A DNA stretch of 64,000 nt from Agrocybe praecox (Eukaryota; Basidiomycota; Agaricomycetes; Agaricales; Agrocybaceae), in contig OZ024840.1 of the NCBI GenBank assembly GCA_964017145.1, positions 4,030,001 to 4,094,000 on the forward strand, written 5' to 3'. The position numbers were made by a program, and so were the translations under genes. The notes below the pieces were generated by a model that saw nothing but the letters and a program-made list of their open reading frames with translations, did no database searches and was not told the origin of the DNA. Positions 6,701-53,000 of the stretch are shown one piece after another. Within the stretch, counting starts at the first letter, position 1. The number at the start of each line of letters is the position of its first letter.

Positions 6701-9631
6701 AACCAGCTCCACAAGTGCTCGAGGCCCTGGAATCAACCCCAATGCCGATCCTCCCAGCTAAAGGATCAGGTCTTGTATTGTCAAATGGGCAAGTGCGATC
6801 ACCACTAGCACAGGCTCTGACGATCTTCCATAAGCGTTGCCTCATCGCGCGACGAAGCTGGCTCCCCCCACTCCTCGCGTTGGCCGTTGGTATATCCGGG
6901 GCATGGTGGCCCATAAGATTCGTGACTGGGGATGTAGCTTCTTGCGCGCATCTTCCCCCGCAATCAGATATATCCTTCGCAACTTACCCTCCATTCCTTA
7001 ACAACGGCACAATCCCTGTCAGCCCTCCTAGCCTCATTGGCCAAATTAACGCGAGTCTTCCGGAATTGTTTGTGGACCCTGTTCTCAGATTCACAAGCGA
7101 TGGCTCAAGTCTCCATCGAGGACCTTTTGACCCCTTCTTTTCCGTCGTGGATAAAGAGTCTTTAATTGACTTGGTCAATCAAAACTATCATAACTTCACT
7201 CTGGACGCCGCTCTCTTCATGGATTTTGACAAGAACGACTTTCTCATTGCCTACAACGTGGACCCAACCTCAATGATATATTTCTCCGTAGCCTCGAATA
7301 TGTTCTTTGCTCGTGCGCTGAATGAGTCCAGTAGTGTGACGACGGGCGCGAGGAAGATTGTCGTTACTTTCCAGAACTTCCCTTCTGTGACTGACCAGTC
7401 TTTGGTCAGTATGCAGTGGTTGGCTATTTTTGGCGCTGCGATGGTGAGTTGTTACATTTTGCTAATTTATTATCGTTATCCCTGAATATACTATGTTCAG
7501 GTCGTATACCCTGCGTTCTTTGCACTGTACGTATCGAAGGAAAGACATTCATCTGTACAAGCTATGCAGTTATCCAATGGGCTGTCGAATCCACTGGGAC
7601 TCTGGCTTGGACACCTATTGTTTGACTCTATATTCACAGTAATCATTGCTACGGTCATTGCGATTTTATATGGCGTAGTTCGTCACAAGTTCCAGGGAAT
7701 AGGTTACCTGGTAAGGATTCTAATGCCTATTCGGCGGTGCTTGTTCTGACCGTGTCTTTTCGTCCTACTTTTAGTGGTTCATAATCTGTCTGTATGGGTT
7801 CGCGTCTACGTTGTACGCGTACATTATAGCCATCATCATGAAATCGCCACTCGGAGGCTTTGCACTTGTTGTGGTTTCGCAGTTCTTTATATATCTGGTC
7901 AGTTCATTTCTATGTATCCTGCTTATAACATTGCTTATCTCATTGTATACGCTTTGTACAGCTCTATCTAACGGGATACATTGTCACCTTTTTTATCGGC
8001 AACCCTCAAACAATTCAACAAACATTCACGGTCATTCACTTTACTACAGCCCTTGTCGCGCCCATCATCAGTCTGGTAAGACACCCCTTTACGCGCCCGC
8101 GTTCACAGGTAACTTAACTTTCGCATAATTAGGTGCGGGCGGCCATGGTGTCCGTGAATCAATTCTCCCTAGCATGTAACGGGGAGCACGTTGCTTCCGG
8201 GACCGCTCTTGGAAGTATCACTCGTCTTGGAGGGCCAATTTTATACCTCATTATGTGGATTCTGGTGCTGCTGGCTGTCCTTGCGCAGGTCGATGCGGGG
8301 TCTATCCGCCTTCCATGGTCAAAACCTAAGCAAAACCAGGTGACGGAAGAGAAGAACGGTCTGCCGTCCGAGTTCGTCAACGAAGATGTGTCTACGGAGG
8401 TTAAGCAAGCTTTATCTTTCTCGAACGCGGATCCTCTACGTGTTTTGAATATCTCCAAGTCCTTTGGGAAAAATAAAGTTGTCGACGACATTACATTTAC
8501 GATCCCTAGCAATTCGCTCTTCGTTATGTTAGGGCCTAACGGCGCTGGAAAGACCACAACACTTGACCTAATTCGTAAGTTGCGCTTTCTCTCAATCCCG
8601 ACACAGCCCCTCATCCAAAATATTGGCATTAGGTGGCAGCTTAAAACCCGATACCGGAGACGTACTTGTCAAAGGCATTTCTACCCGTACGAATGTTAAG
8701 GAAGCCCGTTTGTCATTTGGCGTGTGCCCTCAATTCACAGCTATGGATGCACATCTGACCGTCAAAGAGCACCTGTACATATATGGCAGATTGAGAGGCC
8801 TCCCGCATGGCGAATTGGACGCCAACATCGTTTCGGTCATGCGAAGCACTGGTTTAGATGTCTATTCTGATCGGTTGGCGACGAAACTTTCCGGTGGTAA
8901 CCAAAGAAAACTTGCTTTAGCGATCGCGCTGGTTGGTATGTGCTTACCTTTATGAGTTGTCGGTGATATGTAACTCACTAATAATATCAGGCAATCCTTC
9001 TGTAATCCTTGTCGATGAGTATTCGACGGGCATCGACGCAAAGATGAAGCGTGAGCTTTGGGAAGTACTTAAACAAGCTACAAAAAATAAGGCTGTGCTT
9101 TTGACCACTCGTGAGTGTACATGACATGAAATCAAATAGGATTTGGATGGCTGACTGTGTACTCGAAAAGATTCAATGGAAGAAGCTTCTTATCTTGCAA
9201 CCAAGGTTGGAATCATCTCAAAACGGATGCTAGGTGTGTTTTCGAATCTTTCTCTACTTTCAATCCAGCGTCTGACGGAGTGATTCCAAATGACAGCAAT
9301 CGGAACACCTGCTGAGCTCGAATCCCGCCATGAATCGTACGAAGTGCACTTTTCTTGCCAGACTCGGGACGAGCTAGTCAAGGTTAGAAAAGTAATGGCA
9401 AATATCCCAGGCGCGCGAATGGTCGACGACGTGGCCACCCGCTTTGAGATTCCTATACACACACCTTCAGACGCACCATTGGAACAAGGTGCAGTGACGT
9501 CTGTCGCGAGTATTTTTGAGACCCTTTCAAAGGAGGGCAGGGATATCCCCCAGTTTACGGTCGGAAAGTCGAGTTTGGAAACGGCATTTATAAGAATTAT
9601 TAATGAGGATTCTACCTCGCGGAAATTGTAG
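3760..9631 (+). CDS. ABCA-type full-size ABC transporter, copy 1
   Basis: Full-length ABC transporter in TMD1-NBD1-TMD2-NBD2 order, of the A subfamily (lipid or amphiphile transporters, probably in an internal membrane). About 20 exons split by short introns; first exon 3760-3834 begins MPSAFWRQF, later exons end at the stop at 9629-9631. NBD1: Walker A GANGAGKST (the codons span the intron near 5705-5767), signature LSGGQKRKL, Walker [12 protein letters not shown]-loop TTH before an intron. The large luminal loop of TMD2 with N-glycosylation sequons lies at about 6930-7440. NBD2: GPNGAGKTT (near 8535), signature LSGGNQRKL, Walker [13 protein letters not shown], then THSMEEA split by an intron. 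About 1,650 residues. All catalytic motifs are intact. The ABCA-specific regulatory segment follows each NBD. Substrate cannot be told. It is more divergent from copies 2 and 3 than they are from each other. Confidence 0.9.
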
Positions 9632-10678: not shown

Positions 10679-13600
10679 ATGGCTAACCTGTTTTGGCTAC
10701 AATCACGCGCTTTGATCTGGAAGAATTGGATTGTGCTCTGGAAACATTCATTTGTACGTTATTCTATCCATTCAAACCCTCGAAGGTCATTGAAGTGGAT
10801 ATTGCTTGCAGTGGACTATATTGCGTAGTTTCATTCTTCCTATAGCATATGGCGCCTTTCTCGCCACTGCACAGGTCTTCCTGAACAAGTTGAACAATGT
10901 ATGCTATTGCTTCTCCAGTTCAAAGATGAATCGTTAGATTAACCATCTCTAGTATGGCATTGGCGACCCTGTGCCTGTCAAAACACTTCAAAGCCAGTTC
11001 GACCCCAAAACTAGTTTCATTTGGGCGGATGCAACCGACGGCACGAGCGATCCTTCTCCAGCCAGCATTATTGCTCGCATCACCTCTGACTTTACACCTT
11101 CCCAACTTTCGTCCACTAAACAAGTCTCGGACCCCAGTATCATACCATCTTTATGCCCTCAAAACTTCAATCTCTTCTCGGAATGCTTTGCAGCGGTCGC
11201 GTTTTACGATATACCGAAGAATGGCAATGGATCACGACCTATCAATTATACCATCTCAGCGGACTCTGGGCTTTCGTTCATCGACGCAGTGAAGCACACA
11301 AGTGATTTTGAGAAACGTGTTTTACCACTGCAGTGGGCCATAGACAAGGTGTGTCGACCCCTGATATAGTTGGCCCTCCTATCTAACTATGTGGGATTCC
11401 TAGGCAATCATCGAGCTTCAGACTGGCGTCGAACAACAAACACCTCTCGAATGGCCATTCAATCAAGAAACGAACAAAGAACAGGAAACCAATATTCGCC
11501 TCAGTATGTCCGCAGCAGCTGCACATGTATGCGTGTAGCATTTTGATGTTTTTTTAATACGAATATAGGTTATATCCGAGGTATCAGGAATCTTCTCGCC
11601 ATAGCTTTGTGAGCTCTAGAGGTAGTTTAGATTATCATGGCGCTAACATCTGTTCAGCTTTGTTTCCTTCATTGGTATCGCATACCAACTGCCAGGAGCT
11701 GTTGCCGGAGAAAGAGCATTGCTGATCACGGAACACATGAAGGCGATGGGGCTATTGGATTCGGCAAGGATATTGTAAGTACTTCCGAACACATGTCTTC
11801 GACGAGTTTTTAACGTTTGAGACAGGTCGTGGCATATTGGCATTTCATTGACATACCTTCCCGCCTGGGTAGTCGTTTCTCTGACCTGGAAATTCCGCGT
11901 CTTTACAGAAACCAGCGCCGGTCTGATATTCGTTGTCCATCTCCTACTCGGACTGGTCCTCGCAAGTTGGTCCTTCTTTGTCGCAGCGCCCTTCGGTAAG
12001 AGCCCTCAACTGGCCGCCGTGGTAACCACGTTCCTTGGCATCGTCCTTGCGATTCTAGGACTTGTTATCAAGAGTAAAAGCAATGGGACGCTGTTCATTT
12101 TTTCCATTATATTTCCACCCTCTTTTTATATCTTTGCTCTCAAAGCCATTTGTGGTTATGAAAATCACCAGCTTGCGACGATTGCGACGAAAGGAGACCC
12201 AGATAATGGGGTAGTGCTTGCACCGTTACTTATTGCAGCAGCGGTGAGTATCTTATATCACATTCGCATTACCAATGAGAAATCTAACAATTTTGTCCAG
12301 ATCGATATCTTCCTTTGGCCATACCTCGCCGTACTATGGGAAAGGCGCCTATACGAAGTCCGTACAGTATCTTCATCACCAAAATCGCGATCGTGGGCAT
12401 TTTGGAGAAAAAAACCAACAGGGCAGGACTCTGAACCTTTGGCTGAGAATACTGCTATCTCTATCCGAAATTTAACGAAAACATACAAAACGTCTAGATT
12501 CAGCTCAAAGGGAGATGTAACTGCAGTTTCAAATCTAAGCCTTGATATTCCAAAGACAGGGATTTTCGTACTGTTGGGCTCTAATGGGTAATTAATGAAT
12601 CTATACAATCACAATCTTGGATAAATATCGATTTACATGCCGTTTTTTAGAGCTGGAAAGTCAACATCTTTGTCGGTTATTGCAGGTTTATCCAGCATCA
12701 CGAGCGGAACAGTCACCTTTGAAGGCTCTCTTGCGCGACCTCCTCGTGGCACATTGGGGATTGTGCCACAGAAGAACGTCCTCTTCCCCGAACTTACCTG
12801 CATACAGACTCTCCGCGTCTGGAAAGCCGTAAAATGGTCCACAAATTCGCAAGGTGATGAGGACCTTGAGCAGTTACTGCGCGACTGTGATCTGGAGAAG
12901 AAGAGTAACGCAAATGCGTCGACACTTTCTGGTGGTCAGAAAAGGAAGCTACAGTTGGCTATTGGGCTTTTGGGTGGATCAAAGAGTAAGTCCAACATTT
13001 GGTGGTTTTGACAACGATTGAGGTTTCGAGTATCCTGACATTGTTGGTTTGTAATAGTCATTCTCGTGGATGAATGTACCTCTGGAGTGGACCCGCTGAG
13101 TAGACGTGCCCTGTGGAAGACTTTGACGGGTTTCCGAGACGACCGAAGCATTGTTTTCACCACCCATGTAAGCGACCAGCCTTTATCCTATATGGTTAAT
13201 ATATGCTAACAAAACGTTGTCTAGTTCCTCGACGAAGCTGATCTCCTAGCCGACTATATCGCTATCCTAGCTGCTCCCGGAAAGGTTGTCGCCTCTGGTC
13301 CTCCTGTCTCTCTCAAACGTGACCTTGGGCAAGGTTATTCCATCCAAGTATCGCTACCTACAGGTACCGGCAATGTATCGGAGAAGACTGAAACATCAAC
13401 ATCGACCGAGTTACTGGGACAAATCAAAGTTGTCGCCCCACAGACATATATCACAAGTCCTTCTCCTTCGCATGTCGTCTACCACTTGAAGACGAGAGAT
13501 ACGGACGTCGTTAGCCAAGTACTGAACCTTGCTGACAAAGAAGTCCAAGCAGGCAAGGTAGTGTCTTACGATATCCTTGGGACAACGATTGAGGACATCT

Positions 13601-16438
13601 TCTTGGATTTGATGAACAAGGAGGCAATGGACCACGACGACGAGAAAGGATCCACTAACACGCTTTCGCCTTCTCCTCCTCCCTCGCTGCCCAAAGAGAC
13701 TCAAGTCATGGATCTACCGACCGGCAGACCAGTCTCTCCATTCAGACAGGCCTTCACGATATTCCACAAACGCGCATTGATAGCAAGGAGAAGTTGGCTG
13801 ACCCCCGTCCTTGCTATCCTTGTTGCGATTGCTGGATCAGGTATACCCCTAATCTTCTTGAAACATAAGGCACCCACATGTGTTCGACGGTTTGGAAATA
13901 CCACTTCGATACCTCTATACCTCCCCGAATCGCCCATTGTGCCGTTCACATTCGGACCGTCTTCTCGTACGCTCGTTCAGCCTGGGGATGCTCTGGCTTC
14001 GTTGGGCAATAATTTGAACTTTTTCCGAATCACCGAGGTTGCGGATAACCAGACGTTCGTCAATGATATTCGACAGAACTTCAGGAATCTCTCTTTGGGA
14101 GGTGTTTCGTTTGACTTGAATACCGGTGCTTCTTTGGTTGCTTGGGAAGCTACCCCACCTGGGTTTACAGGGCCATCTATGTTGAATTTGGCTACGAATG
14201 TCTTGTACCAGCGCGCCCTGAATATGTCTGGAAGTATGGCTACTAGCCCTACGATCATCAAAGCGGATTATGCGGCTTTCCCTCCTGTAGCAGCTGGCAC
14301 ACTCATTTCCATTAAATGGCTCATATTCTTTGGAGCTGTTATGGTACGTGCACCTCCGATTTAGTTGCGAATTATCAATTAACTTTTTATATCATAGGCT
14401 GTATACCCTGCCTTTTATACCCTCTATGTTGCGAAGGAACGCCGTTCATCAGTTCAAGCCATGCAAATGTCAAATGGTCTGACGGACCCCATTGGCCTCT
14501 GGCTAGGACACCTGATGTTTGATACGATTTCAGTGGTCATCTTATCCACTATAATTGTGATAATATTCGCCGCTGCTTCCAATCAGTTCCATGGCCTTGG
14601 GTTCTTGGTGAGAGTGATTGATATAGGCTGCAACAACGTTGATGCTGATTATATATCTCTTTTAGTGGTTCATCATGGTTATCTATGGAATGACAGCAGC
14701 ACTGTTCTCATACTGTGTGTCATTGATGGTCTCTTCTCCTTTAGCAGCTTTTGCCGCTGTTGCAGGATATCAATTTATCATGTTTATTGTCAGTTGGATC
14801 AGGCTTTTGATTATCCTTTTTGTTCTTTGGTAACTGATTATCGTTTTATAGCTGTATCTATCTTCATATTTGCTGGTGCTCACATACGGAAAGGTTACTG
14901 AAGCAACACGCTTAATTACGATTATTCATTTCACCACGTCCATTGTAGCGCCCGTATGCAGTGTTGTGAGTTATTATTTTCTAACTTCCAAACGTCTTTG
15001 AACTCATTTGTTGTCCGACAGATCCGCGCAGCTCTTGTTTCTGTCAACCTGTTCTCACTGCTTTGCGATGGAAACACAATTATCGATACTGCGTCCATGG
15101 GTTCGATCATCCGTTACGGTGGACCCATTTTGTACCTCTTCGTTTACGCCTTCATTCTTCTTGCTATTCTTGTCTGGGTTGACTCTGGTTCTCGAACACC
15201 CCGTCGCCTCCGGCCTCGCAAAGAGGTCGTAGCTGCCACAGGAACAGCGTCATCATCAAAAGAAGATGTTGTTGCGGCTGCAGAGGCTGTTGCAGCATCC
15301 GATGACCCCCTTCGTGTTGTCAATGTATCGAAGAATTTCAATGGCAACCAAGTCGTCGACGATGTCAGCCTTGGTGTCTCCAAGGACACTGTTTTCGCGT
15401 TATTGGGGCCCAATGGAGCAGGAAAGACGACCACGTTTAATATTATTCGTAAGTACTTTCGCTGTCCATCTGGAATCTAAGCACTGAAATTTTTGCAGGG
15501 GGTGATATCTTACCTGACATTGGAAATGTATTCATCAATGGTACATCCGTTGTCCGACACCCACGTACCGCTAGGTCTTCCTTGGGCGTGTGTCCACAAT
15601 TCACTGCCATCGATTCTCAGCTCACAGTCAGAGAGCATCTAATCATATATGGACGACTCAAAGGCTTGAAGAAGGGTCCTGAACTCGATGCGAGCGTGGA
15701 AGCCGTCATGCAAGGAACGTCACTCAGCATGTACGCAGATCGTTTGGCTAGCAAGCTGTCTGGAGGAAATCAAAGAAAACTTTCTCTCGCCATTTCTCTC
15801 ATTGGAAACCCATCCGTCATCCTGATCGACGAGTTCTCTACGGGTATTGACCCGAAGATGAAGAGGGATATGTGGCAGACTCTGAGGAGGGTGGCTGTTG
15901 GTAAAGCCGTCGTTATTACCACACGTAAGATATTTCTCGACGTCATGATCGCTCTACATCTGACTTTATGGTTTTTAGATTCAATGGAAGAAGCTTCAGC
16001 ATTGGCGAATAGTGTTGGAATTCTAGCAAAGAGAGTGCTTGGTATGTTTTGCCTTTCAATTCCGAGTCCAATGGAATGCTGATCTCCGTTGCAGCTGTCG
16101 GTACCACTGAATCGTTATCTGCGCGTCACGCCACCTATGAAGTGCACTTTACATGTCGGAATCGGGAAGAGGTCGTCAAAGCTCGCACTTTGATGGCTCT
16201 CATTCCAGATTCGAAGATGGCAGATGATGTGGCGACCCGATTCGAAGTGCCTATAGCAGACGAATTCTCGCTATCGAAACTGTTCAACACACTCGCGAGC
16301 CAGGGCGATTTCACTGAATATACAGTCGAAAGAGCTTCTTTGGAGAGCGTATTCTTGAAGGTTATCCGCGAGAATAATGTCAGAGAGGAAGATACAGAGC
16401 GGTCACGTTCTCGTCGTCGTGCATGGTGGAGGTGTTGA
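10679..16438 (+). CDS. ABCA-type full-size ABC transporter, copy 2
   Basis: Second ABCA-like transporter, tandem to copy 1 and in the same orientation. It starts MANLFWLQSRALIWKNW at 10679; the tryptophan-rich entry into the first membrane helix is shared with copy 3 (MPNIFWLQF). Large first luminal domain at about 10960-11560. NBD1: GSNGAGKST (around 12585-12660), [10 protein letters not shown]-loop, [22 protein letters not shown], then FTTH and FLDEAD after an intron. TMD2 has a second luminal loop at about 13850-14330. NBD2: [10 protein letters not shown] (15408), GVCPQFTA Q-loop, [22 protein letters not shown], and THSMEEA split across an intron near 15925-15978. The C-terminus is arginine-rich (RSRSRRRAW). 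Catalytic glutamates are present in both Walker B motifs. Likely active; substrate unknown. Intron positions parallel those of copies 1 and 3, showing descent by gene duplication. Confidence 0.92.
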
Positions 16439-16610
16439 GATTAGAAAACGCATTTTTTAGATCTGTTATTCCTTGATCTATCTTGTCATCTTGATTTGTA
16501 TAATGGCTTGTTTAAACTAGCTGCATGTTTTTTTCGTGGACTAGACTAGCACATTGAGAGCTACTCTAGATAGAATAAATGATAGTGTAATCTGGGCTGC
16601 CAGGTCAGAT
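16439..16610. other. Convergent 3' region
   Basis: Short gap between the converging 3' ends of ABCA copy 2 (plus) and the small membrane protein (minus). It presumably contains both polyadenylation regions; no gene is seen. Confidence 0.4.
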
Positions 16611-17435
16611 TTAATTAGTCTTCTCGCGAGCAATGATCTCATTTCTTGCTTGCCCGGCCATTCCCTGTAGGTATGTGTTGATCCTAAGGGCAAGAGGCAC
16701 ACCCAGAACAATAGCTGCAACGATGGACCAAACGATAGGGATGACCGACTCTGGAAGAACGCCGAGATGCAAGGGTTCCAATAGAAGGATAAAAGAAACG
16801 TCATATCGAGAACCATTGGCCAGTGGGTTGTTTTCGAAGGGTGTCAATACACCGCTATGAAGTAGTTGAATGCGTGCATATTTGGTACGCGTTTGAGAGT
16901 GGGCAGGTGCTATATCTCCAGTCGAATAACTTGACAGAGACGAAGGGTCATAAATGGTCATAGTAAAGTCGGTCGGTTGCTAAAGTTAAAGTTCAAAGCG
17001 TAAAGATAGAGTGACAAGCGAAGTCCCCAGCAGAGGTTTTCACGCACGTAAGCAGGCCAGGAGATCCTCAGCGTGAATTTACTGAATTTTTTCCATTCGT
17101 CTTGATCGAGGTCAAGCACGACCCAAAGTTCGTGCGAGCATAGCTCTGGGCGAGCAAGACTCCATTCATCGACGTTGCTGCATATGCTCGGTAGGATATC
17201 CGAGCTCGACGGAGCAGAAGTGGCGTTAAGTTGTATTTGCGAGGATCCAGGACGAAGTGTAGGCCTGAAAGTATGTCGTCAATATTTAAATCCATTGCGA
17301 ACAGGATAGCATCCACCATTTACTCGTAAAAGGCAGACTGATGACTGAGCTTTGGTAGGCGTCGAAGTTCACAATCTCAGTATTTCCCATGCATGCTTTA
17401 GCAAGCAAAGTCAAGATGAAGAACCATATCAGCAT
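16611..17435 (-). CDS. Small single-pass ER-type membrane protein, conserved fungal
   Basis: Exons 17317-17435, 17048-17264 and 16611-16979 give 234 residues. The start at 17435 gives a clear signal peptide (MLIWFFILTLLAKACMG) followed by NTEIVNFDA. A luminal domain follows with the conserved-looking block FTLRISWPAYQPTDFTMTIY. One transmembrane helix is near the C-terminus (about residues 195-215, IPIVWSIVAAIVLGVPLALR) with a short basic cytosolic tail. The topology (signal peptide, luminal beta-rich domain, one C-terminal helix) resembles PIG-X/Pbn1, the partner of GPI mannosyltransferase I, but I see no decisive motif. This is only a topological suggestion; the existence of the gene is well supported by phase-consistent introns. 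Confidence 0.75.
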
Positions 17436-17822
17436 GTGTCGGAATGGAGTGGTGGTGGTAAGGATTGCACAGGGTGAAAGTACTAAGAAGAGAGGAGCCT
17501 AACGCCATGTTTGTCAGCAGCCATCATATCAGCCGAAGACGGACAAGAGTTGTTTCACCATCACATCTTTCACTACGCTCTTTAAGCGAAACATAATGAT
17601 TTTACTATCAGTGTACGACTCGTCAGCGAGATATACTCTGAGGCGAATTTGGCGCGATGGGGACTCCTAATTGAAATACCTTGCAAGTCTGTACGTTTAT
17701 CTTTCTCGTTCATCTATTCACGTCGCAACGTTGACCGCTGTACAGGAAGTTGCCATGAGCTAATGAATGATGACCGAGATATTCCCAAATCCTTCCTCAT
17801 ACAACGAAAGCCACGGACCCTA
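17436..17822. other. Intergenic region
   Basis: About 390 bases between two minus-strand genes: the promoter of the membrane protein and the 3' region of secreted gene A. Nothing else is seen. Confidence 0.4.
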
Positions 17823-18650
17823 TCAAATTTGAAGCGTGTACCTGGAATAATTTGCCTGATCAGCTTTGTGAAAAACCGAAGAAGGAAGACATTACGCACT
17901 TTGTTCGGACATTCTTTTGCTTCAAACCTTTCAAAGAGATTGGAATCCCAAGCTTCCCATTGATTGTTGCAGCTCTGAAGAAGAAAATATTTCGGTTACA
18001 AGTCGGCTCGCATAATTCTGGGTGCATACGTAGCTTACCGAACATAAACATCGGTACTCAAGAGGTCCAACGTCCCCAAAGGAATGATCTCGAGCGAATT
18101 CAGGGCTCCTTGTGTGAGCAGCACATTCGGGACATTCCCAGAATTTACAGTCTCCAAGGGACCGACGACAACAGGCTTGTCGAATGTATGGTCAAATTTG
18201 GCATATTCAGTACCGTTAAGGCCTGCAGAGCTGACGACTCGGGTTACAGTCAACTCAACAATCAGGGGATTCTTGACTGGTGAAAAGGTCCTCAATAATT
18301 ACGAAGATCTAATTCGGACCAGGTGAGCTTACTATCAAAATCGATCCTACATATTGCGAATATATCAGCTTATTTTTAGTTTGACAGAGAACTTGGGATT
18401 TTACTCACGAAATGAGATTGTCAGTAAGGGATTCAAGCTATATATTCCAATGTTATACCTCTGGTTGCATGTGATAACTTATAAAAGCGCTCACTGTGAT
18501 GTATGCGTTGATGCTTTCTACGAAACCCACTCCAAGGAAGTTCACAACATCACCAATGAGATCACGCTCTTCTATCGACGTTGGGACGGCTGAGGCGAAG
18601 GAAAGCAAGAGCGCAAAGAGCGCAAAGAAAAGGACACCGACGCGACCCAT
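17823..18650 (-). CDS. Small secreted protein, microexon family, member A
   Basis: Exons 18495-18650, 18409-18437 (29 nt), 18333-18346 (14 nt), 18039-18276, 17900-17974 and 17823-17841 join to 176 residues. The start at 18650 gives a signal peptide (MGRVGVLFFALFALLLSFASA). After a short helix-like segment (LIGDVVNFLGVGFVESINAY) comes the core beginning IDFDIKNPLIVELTV, then AGLNG, NSGNVPNVLLTQGA and IIPLGTLDLL, ending in GIPISLKGLKQ and YTLQI. The NPL-plus-alternating-hydrophobic pattern resembles the LEA type 2/WHy fold, which is an inference from pattern only. It is the most divergent of the four members. A TATA-like box lies at 18734-18741. Function unknown; secreted or vacuolar. Confidence 0.85.
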
Positions 18651-18733
18651 TGTTCGGATATTACGGATTTCGACAAAGACGTTGATACTGGGGGGAAATA
18701 CCTCAACGAAGGAGCTTTCTCTCCCAGCCATAC

Positions 18734-18741
18734 TATTTATA
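18734..18741 (-). promoter_or_regulatory. TATA box of secreted gene A
   Basis: TATAAATA on the minus strand about 85 bases upstream of the start codon of gene A. The other three family members also have a TATAAA-like box. Confidence 0.5.
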
Positions 18742-19742
18742 ACGAATTCCCAAGTCACAAAACACGAGAAACCCTGACGCGCCTGACGCGAATGTGTCCA
18801 TGAAAGAAGGATGGATTGTACCCGCGACTGCATGAATTTTTCCCAAATGTTGCATCATCTCCATTTCACGAGGGATCTTTCGTGGTCAGCTGCACGAAAA
18901 CCCACTTGGGATGCTACATTTATTGCTCACTCTAACTTTCCGATGCTCATGCCCGCCCATGTCACTGATTAAAAGCGGCCTGAAACAGCGCGTGATGTGC
19001 AAGTGCGATGATACGATGCAGAGAATTTGCAGGTGATTACCCCGCTACCCCGCATTTTACCCACATTTAATTGCGTGCCTAGGACTCAGGTCAGTCCTTG
19101 TAAGTATTTTATTGCCCTGATGTCGTCTGCGATCTCGGATCTCATGATGCAGTTTACTTTATAGTACATATTTATGGGTTTGAAAGACTGCATCCTGACC
19201 TGGTGTTCAGATACCTCATCTTAAGACAACATTCAACGAGGTTCCATTGGAAACGGTCTCCCACTATCCTAGTGAAGGGAAAGGGGTTTCCTGAGGCAAT
19301 TGACTCTCCTAGGTAAACCCCTATTTTGGGGCGTTTAAAGATCGTCCTTGACGCAAAGGTTCTACTTCCTTCATTCGGCTGCAATTCGTACGTCTTTCTT
19401 TCTTTCCTTTTAAAAAAAAGCGATTTGAGGAGGATAAATCACTGGAGAATATAGCAAAAGCTACATGGACCTATTCTATATTCACCCACGAGCCTCTAAA
19501 AATACCTTTCGTTTCCCCACAACTAGGATTGGATGATCGTTTCCTTCACAAACCTATCCAGGATATTTAATGTTTTTTGGATTACCTGGGAACCAGTGGG
19601 CGTCAACGCGTCTTGTAACCTTCTCGCAAAGTGATGTAAACCGACAACCATTGCTCGTTGTAATGCAAAAGAAGAAATCTGGTAGAAGCGGATCTCTCAT
19701 TTCTATTGGACTTCTCCTGAGGTTCTATCCGAAAACTTTCTC

Positions 19743-19748
19743 TATAAA
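19743..19748 (+). promoter_or_regulatory. TATA box of secreted gene B
   Basis: TATAAA about 120 bases before the start codon, in a block (CTATAAATnCTGAACGACCC) conserved in unit 2. Confidence 0.5.
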
Positions 19749-19864
19749 TCCTGAACGACCCTTGAAGCGAGAAGCTCTGTGGTTACTTCCTCGGACGGAG
19801 CCATATTCAAGACCCTCAACTCGAATTCGCCTTCGCCAGCTTCAGCTCTTCAACTTCAACCAAG

Positions 19865-20741
19865 ATGTTCGGCCTTCGTACTCTCTTTGTCGCTGCTGCT
19901 AGTGTCGCCAGCGTCTCGGCTGCTGCTACTGCACGCGCTGCAGACTTCTCCATCGGTGACATCGTCAACGCTCTTGGTATTGGTTTTGTCAAAGATATCA
20001 ACGCATTCGTGACTGTAAGTACCTTGTGTCATTTGCAACAGGCTACTTTTTTGACCATTTTCCAGTCCGAATCCTTGACGGACAATGCCATCACGTTAGT
20101 AGAAATTCCTCTCGGACTCTCGAGCATCATTTGAATATCCTTGCCTTGTACGATTCTGTGAATAAAGTGTCAATTTCGATGGTACGTCTCTCCCCAACTC
20201 CCAACTAACACAATAGCATTTACTGAACGCCAATGCATTTTCTAATAGTTCAGAACCCACTCCCAATCGAACTTACCCTGGATACTGTTACTGCCAAAGC
20301 AGGTCTGAACGGAACGATCTTTGCCACCTTCTCGCACACCTTCCCCAAGCCCGGTCTCGTTGTCCCACCCTTCGGCACCAAGAACTCTGGCACCATCCCG
20401 AACGTCCTACTCCCCCAAGGCGCTGATGCCTCGCTCGCCATCATCCCTTTCGGTATCCTTGACCTCCCAGAGATTGACGTCAACGCCCGGTGCGTCATAC
20501 TTGCTATGCCTTTTTTCTTTCTTTGTATGTATCAAGTCCAGCTTTTCTGACCAATGGTTTGAATCTGCAGTGCGGCCACCATTGGCGGTGCTCTCGGCAT
20601 TCCCATTGCTCTCGATGGCCTCAAGCAGACTGCCGTCCCCGTGAAGTAAGCATGTCATTCATTACCAACTTCCCACTTTTGGGTCCTCTGTACACGAAAT
20701 CTCACATATGTATCCATAGCTACACTCTCGAGCTAGATTAA
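19865..20741 (+). CDS. Small secreted protein, microexon family, member B
   Basis: Exons 19865-20014, 20066-20094 (29 nt), 20168-20181 (14 nt), 20249-20489, 20571-20645 and 20720-20741 join to 176 residues. Signal peptide MFGLRTLFVAAASVASVSA, then DFSIGDIVNALGIGFVKDIN, the microexon-coded SESLTDNAIT and VNFD, and the core VQNPLPIELTLDTVTAKAGL with GTKNSGTIPNVLLPQGADAS and GIPIALDGLKQ. It ends YTLELD. No cysteines are obvious in the mature core. Nearly identical to member C. The 14-nt exon carries the strand just before the NPL motif, so skipping it would shift the frame. Function unknown; a LEA2/WHy-like extracellular beta-sandwich is my best structural guess. Confidence 0.9.
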
Positions 20742-22101
20742 GTGCTAAGCTCCACAAGCCGAAAAAGTATCTACTCTCCGAATTGAAGGATTGTGGTATT
20801 TATCGAAGTTTGGGTTGGGGATTTTTCTCTCTTGAAGTCATATATCTTTGTATGTATGATGCAGGAGCTTTTATCATTCACAAAGGACCGATACACGCGC
20901 CTTTCGTAGTAGTAGTTGACATTTGCCCGTACAAACGAGAATTCAAACTTCATTTTCCCGTTGGCATCTCGCACTGTCCTTTCATGAAAGCTTGCTCGGC
21001 CTTGTATTGAGAAAGCTGTTTCTATCAATAATCTTGGATTCGTGATTGCAGGCAGAGGCACTACACCTAAGCGCCCAACCGATCAGTAAAATGGATATCG
21101 GCGCTTAATGCTTTTTCATACTAGTGCATCGTGTGAAAGGTTATCTTTGTTATCGGTCCGGAAGTTGAATATTTCTTACGTAGTCAAACTTAAGGGCCAC
21201 TAAGCTATATAAGATAATAGAATCCCTTTGAAATATATGGCCAATAGATATGGCATTTTTTTACGAACTCATATTTACATATCATTAACCCAAGTTGCTA
21301 CTTTTTCTCCTTCTCTTATCTGTAAAAAACTTGACCGCCTTTCCAACTCCTTTCCAAAGATAAATACGACGACGAAGGTTGAACGTTGAACGTTGAACCA
21401 AACCCACTTGGGATGCTACATTTATTGCTCACTCTAACTTTCCGATGCTCATGCCCACCCATGTCACTGATCAAAGGCGGCCTGGAACAGCGCGTGATAT
21501 ACAAGTGCGATGATGCGATGCAGAGAATTTGCAGGTGATTACCCCGCTACCCCGCATTTTCCCCACATTTAATCGCGTGCCTAGGACTCAGGTCAGCTTA
21601 TGTCCTTTTCAAGTATTCTATTATCCTGATGTCGATTGCCATCTCAGATCTCATGATGCAGCTTACTTTATAGTACATATTCATGGGTTTGAAAGCATGC
21701 ATCCTGACCTTGACGCGAAGGCACTGCTTCCTTCATTCGGCTGCAATTTGTACGTCTTTCTTTCTTTTCTTTTTTTGACGCGATTTGGGGTGGATAAATC
21801 ACTGGAAAATCTAGCAAAAGCCACATGGACTTGTTCTATGTTCACCCACGAGCCTCCAAAAATACCTTTCGCTTTCCCACCAATAGGATTGGGTAATCGT
21901 TTCCTTCACAAACCTATCCAGGATATTTAATGTTTTTCGTCTTACCTGGGATCCCGTGGACGTCAACGCGGCATGTGAACTTCTCACAAAGTGATGTAAA
22001 CCGACATGCATTGCTCGTTGTAATGCAAATAACATCTGGTAGAAGCGGATCTCTCATTTCTATTGGACTTCTCCTGAGGTTCTATCCGTAAACTTTCTTT
22101 C

Positions 22102-22107
22102 TATAAA
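22102..22107 (+). promoter_or_regulatory. TATA box of secreted gene C
   Basis: TATAAA about 120 bases upstream of gene C, in the same context as for gene B. Confidence 0.5.
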
Positions 22108-22223
22108 TACTGAACGACCCTTGAAGCTAGAGGCTCTGTGGTTACTTCCCCGGACGGAGCCATATTCAGCACCCTCAGTTCGAATTCGCCTTCGCCAGCT
22201 TCAGCTCTTCAACTTCAACCAAG

Positions 22224-23106
22224 ATGTTCGGCCTTCGTACTCTCTTCGTCTCTGCTGCTAGTGTCGCTAGCGTCTCTGCTGCTGCTACCGCACGCGCTGC
22301 AGACTTCTCCATCGGTGACATCGTCAACGCTCTCGGTGTTGGTTTTGTTAAGGATATCAACGCGTTCGTGACTGTAAGTACCTTGTGTAATTTGCAACAG
22401 GCTACTTTTTTGACCATTTTCCAGCTCGAATCCTTGGTAGACAATGTCATCACGTTAGTAGAAATTCCTCTCGGACTCTCGAGCATCATTTAAACATCCT
22501 TGCCTTGTATGATTCTGTGAATAAAGTGTCAACTTCGATGGTACGTCTCTCCCCAACTCCCAACTAACGCAATAGCATTTACTAAACATCAATGAATACT
22601 TTGTTTCTAATAGTGCAGAACCCACTACCAATCGAACTTACCTTGGATACCGTTACTGCCAAAGCAGGTCTAAACGGAACGATCTTTGCCACCTTTTCGC
22701 ACACCTTCCCCAAGCCCGGTCTCGTTGTCCCACCCTTCGGCACCAAGAACTCTGGCACCATCCCGAACGTCCTACTCCCCCAAGGCGCGGATGCCTCGCT
22801 CGCCATCATCCCTTTCGGTATCCTTGACCTCCCAGAGACTGACGCCAACGTCCGGTGCGTCATATTTGCTATACCTTTTTTCTTTCTTTGTATGTATCAA
22901 GTCCGGCTTTTCTGACCAATGCTTTAAATCTGCAGTGCGGCCACCATTGGCGGTGCTCTCGGCATTCCCATTGCTCTCGACGGCCTCAAGCAGACTGCCG
23001 TCCCCGTCAAGTAAGCATATCATTCATTACCAACTTCGCACTTTAGGGTACTCTGTACACGAAATCTCACATATTCATCCATAGCTACACCCTCGAGCTC
23101 GATTAA
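22224..23106 (+). CDS. Small secreted protein, microexon family, member C
   Basis: Exons 22224-22373, 22425-22453 (29 nt), 22527-22540 (14 nt), 22614-22854, 22936-23010 and 23085-23106 join to 176 residues; every exon has the same length as in member B. Signal peptide MFGLRTLFVSAASVASVSA. Microexon 2 reads LESLVDNVIT, microexon 3 gives VNFD, then VQNPLPIELTLDTV. Differences from B are few (for example FVSA for FVAA and ETDANV for EIDVNA). It lies in unit 2 of the tandem duplication. Intact; function unknown. Reads from B and C will be hard to separate by short-read mapping. Confidence 0.9.
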
Positions 23107-23638
23107 GACCGATACACGCGCTTTTCGTAGCAATAGTAGTAGTAGTAGTAGTAGTTGACATTTACCCGTACAAATGAAAATACAAGTTTCATTTTCCAGC
23201 TGGCATCTCACACTGTCTTTTCATGACAGCTCGCTCGGCCTTGTGTTGAGAAAGCCGTGTCTATGAAATAATCTTGGATTAGCGATCAGATGAGCGCGCA
23301 ACCGATCAGCAAAATGGATATCGGCGCTTAATGCTTCTTCATAACAGTGCATCGTGTGAAAGGTTATCTTTGTTATCGGTCCGGAAGCTGAGTACTCCTT
23401 ACGTAGTCAAAGGTCCACCAAGCTATATAAGATAATAGAACCCATTTGAAATATATGGCCAATGGATGTGGCATTTTTTTACGAACTCATATTTACATAT
23501 CATCAACCCAAGTTGCTACTTTTTCTCCTCCTCTTATCTGTAAAAAATCTTGCCGCCTTTCCAACTCATTTTCTACGACGAAGGTTGAATCCCTGCTTCA
23601 AGAAAATTCCCAGCATGTTTTGTGATCCGGCATTACAC
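23107..23638. other. Region between genes C and D
   Basis: Convergent 3' flanks of C (plus) and D (minus). It contains the end of duplication unit 2 and a short run of AGT triplets at 23129-23156. No gene is seen. Confidence 0.4.
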
Positions 23639-24481
23639 CTAATCGAGGTCGAGTGTGTAGCTTTATGATTCAAGTCAGAAGAAAGAAAAGGCTCGACTTT
23701 ATGAAAGACCGCTTACTTAGTAGGTACGCTAGTCTGCTTCAACCCGTCAAGAGCAATAGGCGTCCCGAAGAGTCCTCCAATAGTGAATGCTCTGCACACA
23801 CATACAAAAAGAAACGTCACCAATGCTGCGTACACTTCAATTCAACCGCAACATAAAAGAAACTCACCGAACATTCGCATTGGTATCTGGTAAATCCAAG
23901 ACTCCAAACGGAATGATAACCAAAGAATTCTCTGCTCCCTGTGGGAGATTCACGTTGTTGATCGTTCCAGAATTTTTGGTACCGAGGGGAGGGACGACAA
24001 GACCAGGGGGAGAGAAGGTGTGCGTGAACTGGGCAAAGATCGTACCGTTGAGACCGGCGACGGCGGTTACTTTGTCAAGGGTGAGTTCGATTGCGAGTGG
24101 GTTCTTGACTGAAATATTAGAATGTTTTGTTAGCAATGAGGGAATGTTCTACTCGAAATTTGTGGACGCGTTTACCATCGAAGTTTATACTGCAGCGGAA
24201 CGAGATATTGAGCTATGTTAATAGCTAATAAAATAATATTTCCGACTGGTCTACTGACGATATTACATTGGTGGTGAGGGAGTCCAGCTATATCGAATGT
24301 TAACAGTGCAGTCGATAATTCAAGCCTAGATGCTTACAGTAATGAAGGCATTAATGTCCTTGACGAGACCAACACCGAGCGCGTTAATGATGTCAGCAGG
24401 GCCTGAAGCGTCGGTGGCTGGTATTGCGGATACAACGCCAGCAGTCGCCAATGCGAAGAGTGCAGCGAAACGGTAGTGCAT
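23639..24481 (-). CDS. Small secreted protein, microexon family, member D
   Basis: Exons 24338-24481, 24259-24287 (29 nt), 24176-24189 (14 nt), 23868-24108, 23717-23791 and 23639-23660 join to 174 residues. Signal peptide MHYRFAALFALATAGVVSA, then DIINALGVGLVKDINAFIT, LDSLTTNVIS, INFD and the core VKNPLAIELTLDKVTAVAGL. GTKNSGTINNVNLPQGAENS and GTPIALDGLKQTSVP follow, ending YTLDLD. Exon lengths match B and C except exon 1 (144 against 150). It is convergent with C. Intermediate in similarity between A and B/C. Function unknown; secreted. Confidence 0.88.
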
Positions 24482-26352: not shown

Positions 26353-27256
26353 ATGGGACGCTGGACACAATACGATGAGGTACGCCAATGGTGTATTTTA
26401 TTCGCTCCAACGAAATCTTCATCTAACCAATGACTTGGATATCAACGTACTATAGGATGAATACAGGCTGCCAGAAGGAATGAAGCGCATCGGATACGAC
26501 TCTGACTCTGGGAGGTACTACTTTCGTGACACCGATGGGACCATCTGGAAGGGCGGTGCAGGTGCAGAGTTCGGCGAGATGACCAAAGGTCTGCTCTGCT
26601 CTATATACTTATTTCCAAGAATAAAGGCTAAACACTCCTCTCAATTTACAGTGTCTAGCCTCCCAGCCGCATTACGACCAGAAGACACCGACCTTACCGT
26701 TGACGACGAGTCCTCAGGGACAGACGATTCGAGTCAGCGGCGTGGGCCAGGCCACGATCTTGAAGCTTCACCTCGCATAAGAAGCGGTGGATACCAGCAG
26801 CTCCTATCCAGCGACCACGTAAGCATCATACTCTCTTATTGCAGTTCCGAAATAGCTCCTACTATCCCTGTTCTATTTATATTGCAATATGTCGGGAACA
26901 TACACTCATCCTTCTCTTTCCAGACACGGTCCGTAGTGCATCAGAACTCGTATCGCTCACTTTTCCCCTTCTTCCTCATCATCGCTGTCATCCTACTGCT
27001 CGTTTGGCGCCTGCTTCTGTCTCCTGGTCTTTCTGCCGCACCATCCAAAAAATGCCCCGAAGGCACATCTGTACATTGGATCCAACCGGGCGAAAGCTGC
27101 TGGGAAGTATCCCGACAGTACGGATGGACACTGGAGAAATTCAAGGAAGTCAATCCCAAGGTCGTCTGCGACCCCCTTATGCCCGGCACTTCGGTCTGTC
27201 TCCCGCCTTCTCCCAGTAAAGCAAGGAAGCTGCAACCTCAGAGACGCAGGCTATGA
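26353..27256 (+). CDS. Membrane-anchored LysM-domain protein
   Basis: Exons 26353-26379, 26456-26588, 26652-26818 and 26924-27256 join to 219 residues. The N-terminal cytosolic part has a WW-like segment (IGYDSDSGRYYFRDTDG) and an acidic/serine-rich stretch (DLTVDDESSGTDDSSQ). One transmembrane helix (about residues 125-147, FLIIAVILLLVWRLLLS) has no signal peptide ahead of it, so type II orientation is likely. The C-terminal LysM domain (about residues 160-205) begins SVHWIQPGESCWEVSRQYGW and continues LEKFKEVNPKVVCDPLMPGT. LysM domains bind chitin or peptidoglycan-type glycans. A LysM held at a membrane rather than secreted is less usual in fungi; it could act in the ER/Golgi lumen or at the cell surface. 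Confidence 0.85.
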
Positions 27257-29177: not shown

Positions 29178-30850
29178 TCATGAGCTAGAATCAGGTGCCA
29201 ATACGACAGTATTCAACCACTGTCCAAGCGTTTTGCCTTCCCACTCGTGCACGATATTTTCCTTGAGCGCCGGGGATCCCTTTTCTAAGGCGTACCCGGG
29301 CGGGAGGAGGATGACTGCTGGGGAGTGAGACGGCGAGGGTGTGCAGCGGGTTTTGGACGCGGCAGGGGAAGGAGAGGTTGCGGAGGATAAGTGGGCTGGG
29401 CTGGTGAACCACGGATGTCGCATGGCGTCTTCGGCGCGTATCCTACTGGCGGATGGATAGACAAGGAAAGAGGAGATGAGGTCGAGGGCCATGAATGATG
29501 GGGATGAGGATGCAGAAAAAGAAGGATTTGTTGGAGGCAGAGTTTTGGAGGCAGATAACGATGGAGGAAGGTTGGGGAAGAGAGGAGGGAGAGGAACACT
29601 GTCTACGACGTTGAATACCACAGAAGTGGCTCCCGGAAGTTCTTCAAAGCCCTGAAAGAGTACTTAGTATATGTGTGCTGAGTGGGATAGATATGGCACC
29701 ACATACTGGCCAATTATCCTCTGTCGGTGTCCCAAAAATCTTGAAAATACTCCAAGCTAAACCAATTTCTCCTCTTTCCCCATTGAACAATGTATCTCTT
29801 TTCCATTGTGCACCAGGATAACCTATGCGCAAGTATTTGGGTACGATGAAAGGGGCGAGAGGTACATCCGCAGGATCAGCGTCAGGCTCGGTATCGTCGT
29901 CCTCGTCACCGTCGTCCTCGTCACCACTCTCCAATCTTAAAGCCGTGAAAAACTCTGCGAAGGTTGCTCCGATGGACCATAAGTCAACTGCACAGTGATC
30001 GTAATGTCTCGTCCCAAAGAGAAGTTCCGGAGCCCTATACGCTCGCGTTGATACTTCAAAATACAGCTTCCCGCGATACTCAGGCCAGAGATCATCGTTC
30101 TTCTCCAAGTCTGGCTCGTTCTCCTTCCATGAGACACCAAAGTCGATGAGTTTCACGCAGCCTTCTTTAGTCAACATGATATTCTCCGGCTTGATATCGC
30201 GGTGCCCTATACGACGATGTTCGTCGTGCAGGAAGGCGAGCGCGTCAAGGGTTTGGATCATTATTCCCTTTGCAATGGTGATGAATTGGGCTTGACGTAA
30301 TTTGGACGCAAATTCCTCTGGGACGTCCGTGGATGGAGGAAATGCATGAGGAGAGAAGTACGGAGAGGCAAGGATCGAGGAGAGTGACAGAGGGAGATAT
30401 GGCATATAGATGCTTAGCAGATTCTGCTCTTCGTCTCGGAAACTACCCATACTGAATATGATCTGTACGAGAGAAGAAAAACGTAGTATACCTTTTCAAA
30501 GTTACAAAGACGTTGAATGAAACATACATTCGGATGCAGCATTGAAGAAAGCAGCCTGAGCTCTTTCACAATATCGTGAGGCTCCCTAGCGAATTTTCGC
30601 AGCGTCGTAGCAGACTTGACGACGATCCACTGTGGTATGCCTGCCTCTATCGTCGTCCATACCCTTGAGACAGTCGCGAATGGACCTTCCTGTATAATGT
30701 CAAAATGGGATCCTGGCTACGAGGGAACACATTAGAACGTCAGCAAAAGAGTAATCCACCCAAAAGCAGGCTCACTGTGCTCAATATCCTGATCACGTCC
30801 GGCTGCACTTTCACCTCCCAAGTCAGGCTGGTCATCGGCGGCATGCTCAT
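29178..30850 (-). CDS. CDK-activating-kinase-like (Cak1/Csk1-type) protein kinase
   Basis: Exons 30776-30850, 30528-30716, 29707-30462 and 29178-29651 join to 497 residues. The N-lobe has a degenerate glycine loop (EGPFATVSRVW) and the lysine in WIVVKSATTL. The catalytic loop is HRDIKPENIM, the metal loop is DFGVSW, and the APE region is YRAPELLFGTRHYD followed by VDLWSIGATFAEFF, as in CMGC/CDK kinases. There is an acidic insert (GDEDDGDEDDDTEPDADPAD) before the GTPTEDNWP block. The C-terminus has a proline/serine-rich insert and RHPWF. Loss of the GxGxxG loop is a known trait of yeast Cak1. Likely phosphorylates CDK T-loops; assignment to Cak1/Csk1 is inference. It is divergent from the ankyrin gene with about 310 bases between start codons. 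Confidence 0.82.
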
Positions 30851-50099: not shown

Positions 50100-53000
50100 T
50101 CAATTCGTCGATTGACGGGGTGAACTTGATGAAGAAAAGATTGAAAACACTTTTTCAGCGTTGTTTTTGTATTTCTTCAGCTTCTTCGTCTTGTACTTGG
50201 GATCTGCGCCATTCGATTGTGGAGACCCTCGGATAGCATCAGCTGCATCAACGAAGACCGCTGATTGTGCATAGGACTGGTCAGACGAGTGGCTTTGAGC
50301 GCCCACGGATATGGCCGATTCTTTCGATTTCAGAGAATGCGGCGTTCCCAGGTTCAAGTTGCTTCCAAGTGAGTGAGAAGGAGAGAGGAGACCAATAGAT
50401 GCAGATGAAATTGTGTTGGATGCTGAAGCAGATTGTGAAACTGATCTCGCTGATTTGCTGAATGATGATGGTGGGGGTGATTTTGGACGCAAGAACTGCC
50501 GTGGGGTTTTACGAAGATTGAAACCTGTATTCCTCCCACGTTTCTGAACGGGTGACGGTGAATCCGCACCTGACAGAGCAGTGGCTGTTGAAGCACCTGA
50601 TACTGAGCGCTGACCATTCCTTGATGAGCCTGGTGTTGACGCTTTTCTGAATACCGCAAGACGATAACGGTCGACGACACCACGAGCAAATAGGCTGGTG
50701 CCCTTTGCACCATTTCTGTCTTCGCCATCAGCTGCTTCGATGAAGTCCCAGTCGTCGTCTTCTTCGCGCTCTGCTTCCGTAACTTCAGTGTCCTCATCAA
50801 CAGCATCTGATAAGTAACGGTCCAAGGCGGGTACTCCAGACTTTTCGCGCCGCGAACGAACACCCCGGAGATTGGCGACCTGTCGATTCGGTGCAACTTT
50901 CATAGGTGGGGTCGTCCTTCCACTCACTTCTTTACTTGACACAGCAGGCTCAACTGGAATTGGAGCTGCCGACGAGACATCTTTACTTGTCCGCCTCGTA
51001 GGAGCATCGTCCTCTTGGATTGAAGGCCCCTCTGCCTGAGTTGAAACTGGGGCTTCATCAACTGGAGGAACTTCGGCAGGTTCGGCAGGTTCGGCTTCAG
51101 CAACGGGAGGTAAAGCGGTGGGTCGTGCTTCAGGAGTCTTGGGTTCGAGAGCATCTTCCTGTGAGACATCATCTGACACCAGGGATGTTGCAGAAGCCTC
51201 AGCGGTCGGCTGTTCAACTCCTCCATGGACTGACACATTATCCTCATCTTCCATGCTTTCGTCTGAGCTTTCGTCTGAATTTTCATCATCATCATCGAGG
51301 ACCATTGAGTGCCTGGCCTTGAAGGAATACCCATCAAAGACGTCGACATCAGTATCCATAGCCTGCTGTCCTTGTTGTGGACGAATGGAAGAGCTGCGAG
51401 ACTGCGACGGAGTCGTATTCATCTCTTCGCCATCGGTACGATCAGTGTCTGTCCCTGGTTCCTGATCAGTGTCTGTCGCCTCGTTTTCTTCGTTGAAGTC
51501 ATCTAGCACAGGCTCCATATCCAAGAAAGTATCGTCGAAGTTCTGGGTATCGCTTGCATTCGAAGGGTCGATAGGAGGGATATACGGGGCTGGAAATAGA
51601 TTAATTTCGTTTAATAAAAATAGTCAAACAAGGAGACCCACGTATATAGCGCTTATAGTATACATGAGACCAATCACTAAAGATAAATAAAAAGTTAAAT
51701 CATTTTCGAACTAACGGTCATACAAAAAAACTTACATCATTGAAAAGTATGGATGCTTTTTGATTCTAGGTTCGCATATCCGTAGTGAAGGCACCCTTTG
51801 GAGGAGCTGATAGGAATAACAGTCAGATACCAAGAGACTATAACAACATCAAGTAAACGTACTCCTCGGATCAAACTCTTGGTATCCTGGTCAATAGCTC
51901 TATCGTCTGGGAACTGCAGTTCGTCTTGCAGCACACGAACATACATATCTGAATGATTATTCGCCCAGAAAGGAGTCTGCACGGAATTTTTTTGAGTTCA
52001 GCCATAAAGATTCCAAAGAGAAAAAACTCACAATCCCAGTCAACATTTCATACAACATGGTACCGAAACTCCACCAATCAACCTCATAGCTATACGGTAA
52101 CCCTTGAATAACCTCCGGGGCGAGATACTCAGCCGTACCACAGAACGTCGACGTCGAGTCCGTGTGTCCAATTGGCTGGCCGGGCCACCCAAGAGCAAGC
52201 TCGCCATTCCTGTCCGTTTTCATCCACGGTGGTGTAGCGGGCTGGGGTGTGCCCGGTACAGATGAGTAAAACTCTCCTCCGCGCGAGTGGGATGGTGAAG
52301 AGTCGCTGCGCCGCGAAAACTCCTTGGAAAGACCGAAGTCGGTCAGTACGATGTGTCCGTCGGCACCAATTAGAATGTTCTCGGGCTTGAGGTCACGGTA
52401 GATGACGCCTGCGGCGTGTAGTCCTTCTACGCCCTCGACGATCTCAGCTGCATAAAAACGGGCACGGTCTCGTCCCAGTCGTCCCCAGCGAGCGAGTTGA
52501 GTGGCAAGATCACCGCCAGGATGGAAATCCTGATGATACAATGTAAATCAGCGGCAAGGTTTTTGTGAAATGCATCGAACGTACCATGACCAAAAACAAA
52601 TTCTCTTTATCATGGAAACTCCACCACAATTTAACGACGAAAGGATCCCTGCTCTCCGCCGCCATCCTTTTGAGGACTGCCTGCTCAGTGAGTGTGTGCT
52701 GCAGCTCCTGGTGAGCCAATACATGCCTCTTCGTGATAGCCTTCAACGCGAAGAGGTCTTGAGTGGTCTTGTGCCTCACCAGTAAAACTTTACCCGCACA
52801 ACCCTTGCCAAGGACCCGCATCATCTCGAAATCATCGATAACCACCTTACGCTGTGACTTCCTGGGTTCCTTCTCCTTCGACGTACCAGAGGTCGAAGTC
52901 GACCGCTTTTTGGGGCGTCGCCTACTGCTTTTACCATTAAGCGCGGAAGAAGAAGATTCATCGCCCGTCTGGGAATCGGCACCGCTCTGACTGGGAACCG

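Follow-up and report, generated by a model that had tools for sequence, protein, structure and literature searches.

A cluster of four genes at 17823-24481 of the 64,000-nucleotide stretch of the Agrocybe praecox genome analysed here (the window) encodes four small proteins, each with a single LEA-2-like domain. The genes, which we call A to D and of which two lie on each strand, share a six-exon plan that includes two microexons of 29 and 14 nucleotides (nt). We put at roughly 55% the probability that they belong to a secreted family with a single LEA-2-like beta-sandwich and constitutive microexons, perhaps binding a hydrophobic ligand. The exon models, read from genomic DNA by splice sites, phases and open frames, are as follows.

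18650-17823, minus strand: gene A, 176 amino acids, exons of 156/29/14/238/75/19 nt at 18650-18495, 18437-18409, 18346-18333, 18276-18039, 17974-17900 and 17841-17823
18409-18437, minus strand: 29-nt microexon of gene A
18333-18346, minus strand: 14-nt microexon of gene A, encoding IDFD
19865-20741, plus strand: gene B, 176 amino acids, exons of 150/29/14/241/75/22 nt at 19865-20014, 20066-20094, 20168-20181, 20249-20489, 20571-20645 and 20720-20741
20066-20094, plus strand: 29-nt microexon of gene B
20168-20181, plus strand: 14-nt microexon of gene B, encoding VNFD
22224-23106, plus strand: gene C, 176 amino acids, exons of 150/29/14/241/75/22 nt at 22224-22373, 22425-22453, 22527-22540, 22614-22854, 22936-23010 and 23085-23106
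22425-22453, plus strand: 29-nt microexon of gene C
22527-22540, plus strand: 14-nt microexon of gene C, encoding VNFD
24481-23639, minus strand: gene D, 174 amino acids, exons of 144/29/14/241/75/22 nt at 24481-24338, 24287-24259, 24189-24176, 24108-23868, 23791-23717 and 23660-23639
24259-24287, minus strand: 29-nt microexon of gene D
24176-24189, minus strand: 14-nt microexon of gene D, encoding INFD

The reading frames run uninterrupted from ATG through stop in all four genes, and all 20 introns are GT-AG introns of 50-81 nt whose phases, calculated from the exon lengths, are 0,2,1,2,2 in each gene. The microexon lengths are constant, as is exon 5 (75 nt), and exons 1 (144-156 nt), 4 (238-241 nt) and 6 (19-22 nt) vary slightly. 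An earlier note on this DNA had proposed a common plan with 29- and 14-nt microexons; the spliced models agree with it to the base, and the gene B junctions that it named (20094, 20168, 20181 and 20249) are exact. Its further statement that the frame is lost without the 14-nt exon was computed to be true in every gene. Omission of either microexon or of both causes a frameshift in 4/4 genes, with a stop 102-315 nt upstream of the last junction. The protein can therefore be made only from messages that retain the two microexons, and messages lacking either could be targets of decay.

Within the cluster, genes B and D differ with a synonymous divergence (dS) of 2.9 and a non-synonymous divergence (dN) of 0.28. 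Between A and B dN is 0.41 and dS was not computable, silent changes being at or near saturation; the same applied to dS for A and C, and over the computable pairs in the window dN/dS is 0.09-0.16. Gene C is a recent tandem duplicate of B, 95% identical and with its flanking DNA duplicated too. Because the exon plan is kept by A or D relative to B at saturated synonymous divergence, it is not a product of chance.

We collected 165 related database proteins from three protein searches (36 matches; the best 120 of 128; the best 120 of 160), in the two larger of which scoring was limited to about 8,000 candidates apiece. By their source entries, 147 come from annotated genomes and 18 from metagenomes or read archives, the label 'lgn' being taken to denote read-archive assemblies. 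All 165 were aligned to a family profile, built when 124 relatives were known from 60 of them picked mostly for canonical length, and a further family alignment (A4) comprised 58 of the 165. Exon plans in other species were deduced from protein letters rather than from their DNA. The stretch from exon 1 to exon 4 (residues 46-70) has canonical length in 118 of the 147 annotated relatives, departs from it in 26 and is one-sided in 3; among the 18 metagenome and read-archive proteins it is canonical in 14, split in 1 and one-sided in 3. That the microexons are unused and the gene models misread would agree with the absence of the segment from some annotated relatives, and only genomic sequence underlies the models of A-D. 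This explanation is nevertheless highly improbable, given that the segment is kept in those 118 relatives (mostly predictions themselves) and in those 14 metagenome or read-archive proteins, and that splice sites and phases are fixed across four genes at saturated dS. With the plan conserved in A-D and the segment kept in relatives, chance or misread exons were rejected as the origin of the microexons.

The errors in the relatives' gene models are themselves informative. Counted per domain row, breaks fall in the microexon window in 18 of 152 covered rows (29 rows are uncovered, a number of them split there). In control windows they occur in 1 of 159 rows at intron 4 and 0 of 129 at intron 5, and in four intra-exon windows in 0, 0, 1 and 2 of 159-168 rows. 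The Psilocybe cubensis protein P0008 is identical to the Psilocybe protein P0003 except that exactly NFD is missing from it. The Laccaria bicolor model P0144 carries 17 extra residues that are absent from P0140, the two otherwise differing at one residue and at the end; Armillaria P0141 likewise has 17 residues more than P0126. The three Lentinula edodes models among the matches listed (P0094, P0113 and P0164) are all disturbed at the microexon stretch, each in a different way. Because model errors concentrate here, the protein alignments suggest that introns are likely to lie at the same positions in other genera, and the Laccaria pair points to a spliced message. The earlier note had expected gene callers to miss the 14-nt exon and truncate the proteins; 26 of the 147 models are indeed off canonical length, but 118 are canonical, and most errors insert or delete residues locally, truncations being rare. 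These 26 departures in one short stretch offer a clean test set for genome annotation.

Family members occur in many Agaricales and also in Russulales, Gomphales and Auriculariales by their genus names, the assignment of genera to orders, except for Auriculariales, being our own assumption. The closest relative among the matches listed is from Agrocybe pediades (81% identical); the nearest to gene A, P0146 from that species, is 82% identical. We built a tree of 50 rows from A-D, one homologous domain of a giant protein described below and 43 of the 165 relatives, of which two were split into their two domains and P0018 was trimmed at its start. In this tree, A groups with A. pediades 4322, Crassisporium, Panaeolus and the Laccaria-like P0140 (support 96/84), and B, C and D belong to another clade, which comprises 23 rows (99/86). 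As A and B-D fall in different clades, the six-exon plan predates their split. Together with protein-level traces of introns in Laccaria, Armillaria, Pleurotus, Lentinula and Mycena, this upholds the proposal that the plan is older than the duplications, and the microexon arrangement seems to be old within mushrooms.

Some relatives depart from the single-domain, fully spliced form. P0037 and P0038, from Psilocybe cyanescens and Panaeolus cyanescens, are two-domain proteins of 337 and 353 amino acids, and are probably tandem genes fused by annotation, or else true fusions. The metagenome protein P0118 has an apparent start inside intron 1 and reads through exons 2-4 unbroken; that species may lack introns 2 and 3, or the protein may derive from a part-spliced message.

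Two relatives have confident AlphaFold models, both of them beta-sandwiches, which supports the beta-sandwich core proposed earlier. The nearest solved folds include TMEM106B, LEA14 and Af_0446, the last of which we take to be a member of the LEA_2/WHy superfamily. On these models, a short helix after the first strand would come from the 29-nt exon, and the central part of the second strand, which runs into the NPL motif, from the 14-nt exon. At the level of sequence, gene B scores 13.4 bits against Pfam LEA_2 (PF03168), below the gathering cut-off of 25.4 bits, and LEA_2 matches at an E-value of up to 1 were found in 13 of 60 relatives, with a best E-value of 0.013. The core suggested in the earlier note is thus a beta-sandwich in the two models, with LEA-2 domains among its nearest solved folds, and falls below the Pfam cut-off as a LEA_2 profile match.

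This mixed picture would also be expected of an unrelated secreted immunoglobulin-like beta-sandwich that merely resembles LEA-2. The TRAP-complex chains that top the first Foldseek list favour such an origin, as do the VIA-align scores, in which LEA14 ties with other sandwiches, and the sub-threshold LEA_2 score beside other weak Pfam names with lower E-values. We nonetheless regard it as improbable, since TMEM106B and Af_0446 are in the top ten of both Foldseek lists, LEA14 is placed first by VIA-align, no other weak Pfam name recurs in as many relatives as LEA_2 (the same 13 of 60), and a homologous giant protein has a LEA_2 repeat match at an E-value of 0.001, itself below the cut-off. Other searches added little: a PDB sequence search gave a single row at an E-value of 0.32, the family profile had no PDB match, an NCBIfam search returned 16 unrelated names (best E-value 0.0018), and a viral fold library had no match at an E-value of 0.001.

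The giant protein is encoded by an apparent gene, read as separate exons, at about 718.6-727.8 kb of contig C11 in the same genome, and it holds the one match, below cut-off, that the LEA_2 profile made across the whole genome. Its eight DUF3712 (PF12505) matches are all above the cut-off, the LEA_2-like repeat stands beside them, and its N-terminus, judged by eye in an open frame, has a hydrophobic stretch resembling a membrane helix. Such giant DUF3712-repeat proteins are presumably akin to yeast Tag1. Its last domain is 40% identical to the small proteins over 111 amino acids (E-value 4e-20) and aligns to them in hhalign with a probability of 99.6 and an E-value of 6.5e-25, a homology newly found here. 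Three other pieces of the giant protein gave only weak hhalign alignments to the small family, and DUF3712 itself gave no row for gene B at an E-value of up to 10, nor was it among the eight families matched by 60 relatives. In the giant's last domain, with splice sites placed by eye, the segments corresponding to the two microexons lie within a single exon, an intron sits one base off the position of intron 3, and there are no introns at positions 1, 2, 4 and 5. The difference could reflect intron gain in the small genes once they had branched off, or intron loss from the giant gene; the giant's place in the tree is unsure because its row is very long.

These data allow us to propose how the small proteins might act. 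The signal-like N-terminus would serve as a signal peptide directing passage through the endoplasmic reticulum, where a near-invariant NxS/T site may be N-glycosylated, and the protein would then be released to the wall or medium. There, a hydrophobic, lipid-like ligand could be held in a groove of the domain. Both microexons would be constitutively included, with skipped forms, out of frame and stopped early, giving no working protein. Secreted hydrophobic-ligand binding is proposed because of the likeness to LEA-2 domains predicted to hold lipid: in the portions of the sources available, the LEA-2 domains of TMEM106B, Vac7 and Tag1 are predicted to hold lipid in a groove (PMC12297828, PMC10340176). 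We hold this function only tentatively, although we rank it ahead of the others. A more elaborate version, in which the family is a freestanding secreted offshoot of the giant's last domain acting as an extracellular lipid carrier or signal, with the microexon pair as an all-or-none splicing gate, has the odds clearly against it.

Ranked next is an extracellular stress protectant, a holdase or wall protectant that would act under drying or oxidative stress and bind no specific ligand. P0014, P0137 and P0143 bear automatic UniProt names of WHy type, and WHy-domain proteins are linked to stress resistance in the part of a report available (PMC5570939). The case for a protectant comes from domain likeness only, and that likeness is below the Pfam LEA_2 cut-off; we think this function rather unlikely. 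Less probable still is a role in signalling, with effects on ligninolysis and development, like that of the small secreted proteins Ssp1-6 of Pleurotus ostreatus. The accessible portions of the literature describe Ssp1-6 as a family of six proteins of about 18 kDa that affect lignin enzymes (PMC5674062, PMC7105643, PMC10705924). Size, secretion and several similar copies would fit, P. ostreatus and Laccaria each carry a family member (P0155 and P0144), and the published Ssp1 homologue table, as far as available, includes Agrocybe pediades (9 copies) and other genera that hold the present family. Against this, Galerina, Armillaria and Lentinula, all clearly represented in the present family, are missing from that table, and Coprinopsis is in it but not among the matches listed here; the Laccaria MiSSP24 identifier given in the available text, 293250, also differs from that of P0144, 297593. 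Should the Ssp link or lipid binding prove true, a testable mechanism would become available for proteins that are reported to affect lignin breakdown.

Part of the cluster has a second, decayed copy on another contig.

11914-20878, plus strand: 9-kb block including an ABC-transporter gene and genes A and B, about 95.5% identical to C13:70327-79321

The match ends on both sides of the block within the 30 kb of C13 compared. In the C13 copy of A (copy E), the donor of intron 1 and the acceptor of intron 3 are gone and there is a frameshift, and exon 4 of the copy of B (copy F) is interrupted by an in-frame stop; these lesions rule out both as further working family members. The broken copies fit with selection preserving the splice sites of the window copies, and the block on C13 may be a duplicated locus or may belong to the second haplotype of a dikaryon. 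The ABC-transporter gene adjoins gene A at 14398-16438 (plus strand), with two ABC_tran matches above cut-off and a weak ABC-2 membrane match, and a further ABC_tran exon lies at 8133-8699. Elsewhere in the window are an exon with a LysM domain match (26480-27256, plus strand) and exons with protein kinase domain matches at 29644-30450 and 52510-54018 (minus strand).

The author of the earlier note had not seen such a secreted protein described. Literature searches by identifiers, on DUF3712 in fungi and on secreted LEA proteins in Agaricomycetes listed no publication on the family, judged by title, but several relatives already carry automatic UniProt names of LEA-2 or WHy type. Such labels, like basidiomycete microexons, are already known; what is unusual here is one fixed microexon pair across a large secreted family and the tie to a giant repeat protein. 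For widespread mushroom proteins labelled 'hypothetical' or named automatically, the fold offers a lead and the giant protein a likely evolutionary relative. Like the LEA_2/WHy superfamily (LEA14 and the luminal domain of TMEM106B), proteins A-D would have a single beta-sandwich and an N-P motif after the second strand; unlike it, they have a signal-like N-terminus, an N-glycosylation sequon, an N-terminal helix and a sequence below the profile cut-off. They share the core of their domain and nearly the position of one intron with the giant DUF3712-repeat protein, from which they differ in being single-domain and in having introns 1, 2, 4 and 5. The likeness to P. ostreatus Ssp1-6, drawn from descriptions available in part rather than from sequence, extends to size class, secretion, multiple copies and several shared genera. 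Among fungal microexons, those of Phanerochaete P450 genes, with exons down to 6 bp, similarly place very short exons between short introns (PMC1184071); in the text available, they are not restricted to any P450 family, whereas here one 29- and 14-nt pair is kept across a family. The switch microexon of the Trichoderma transcription factor Xlr2, as described in the accessible part of its report (PMC11121469), is likewise a functional short exon in a filamentous fungus, but its inclusion is regulated, and the microexons of A-D are known from genomic sequence.
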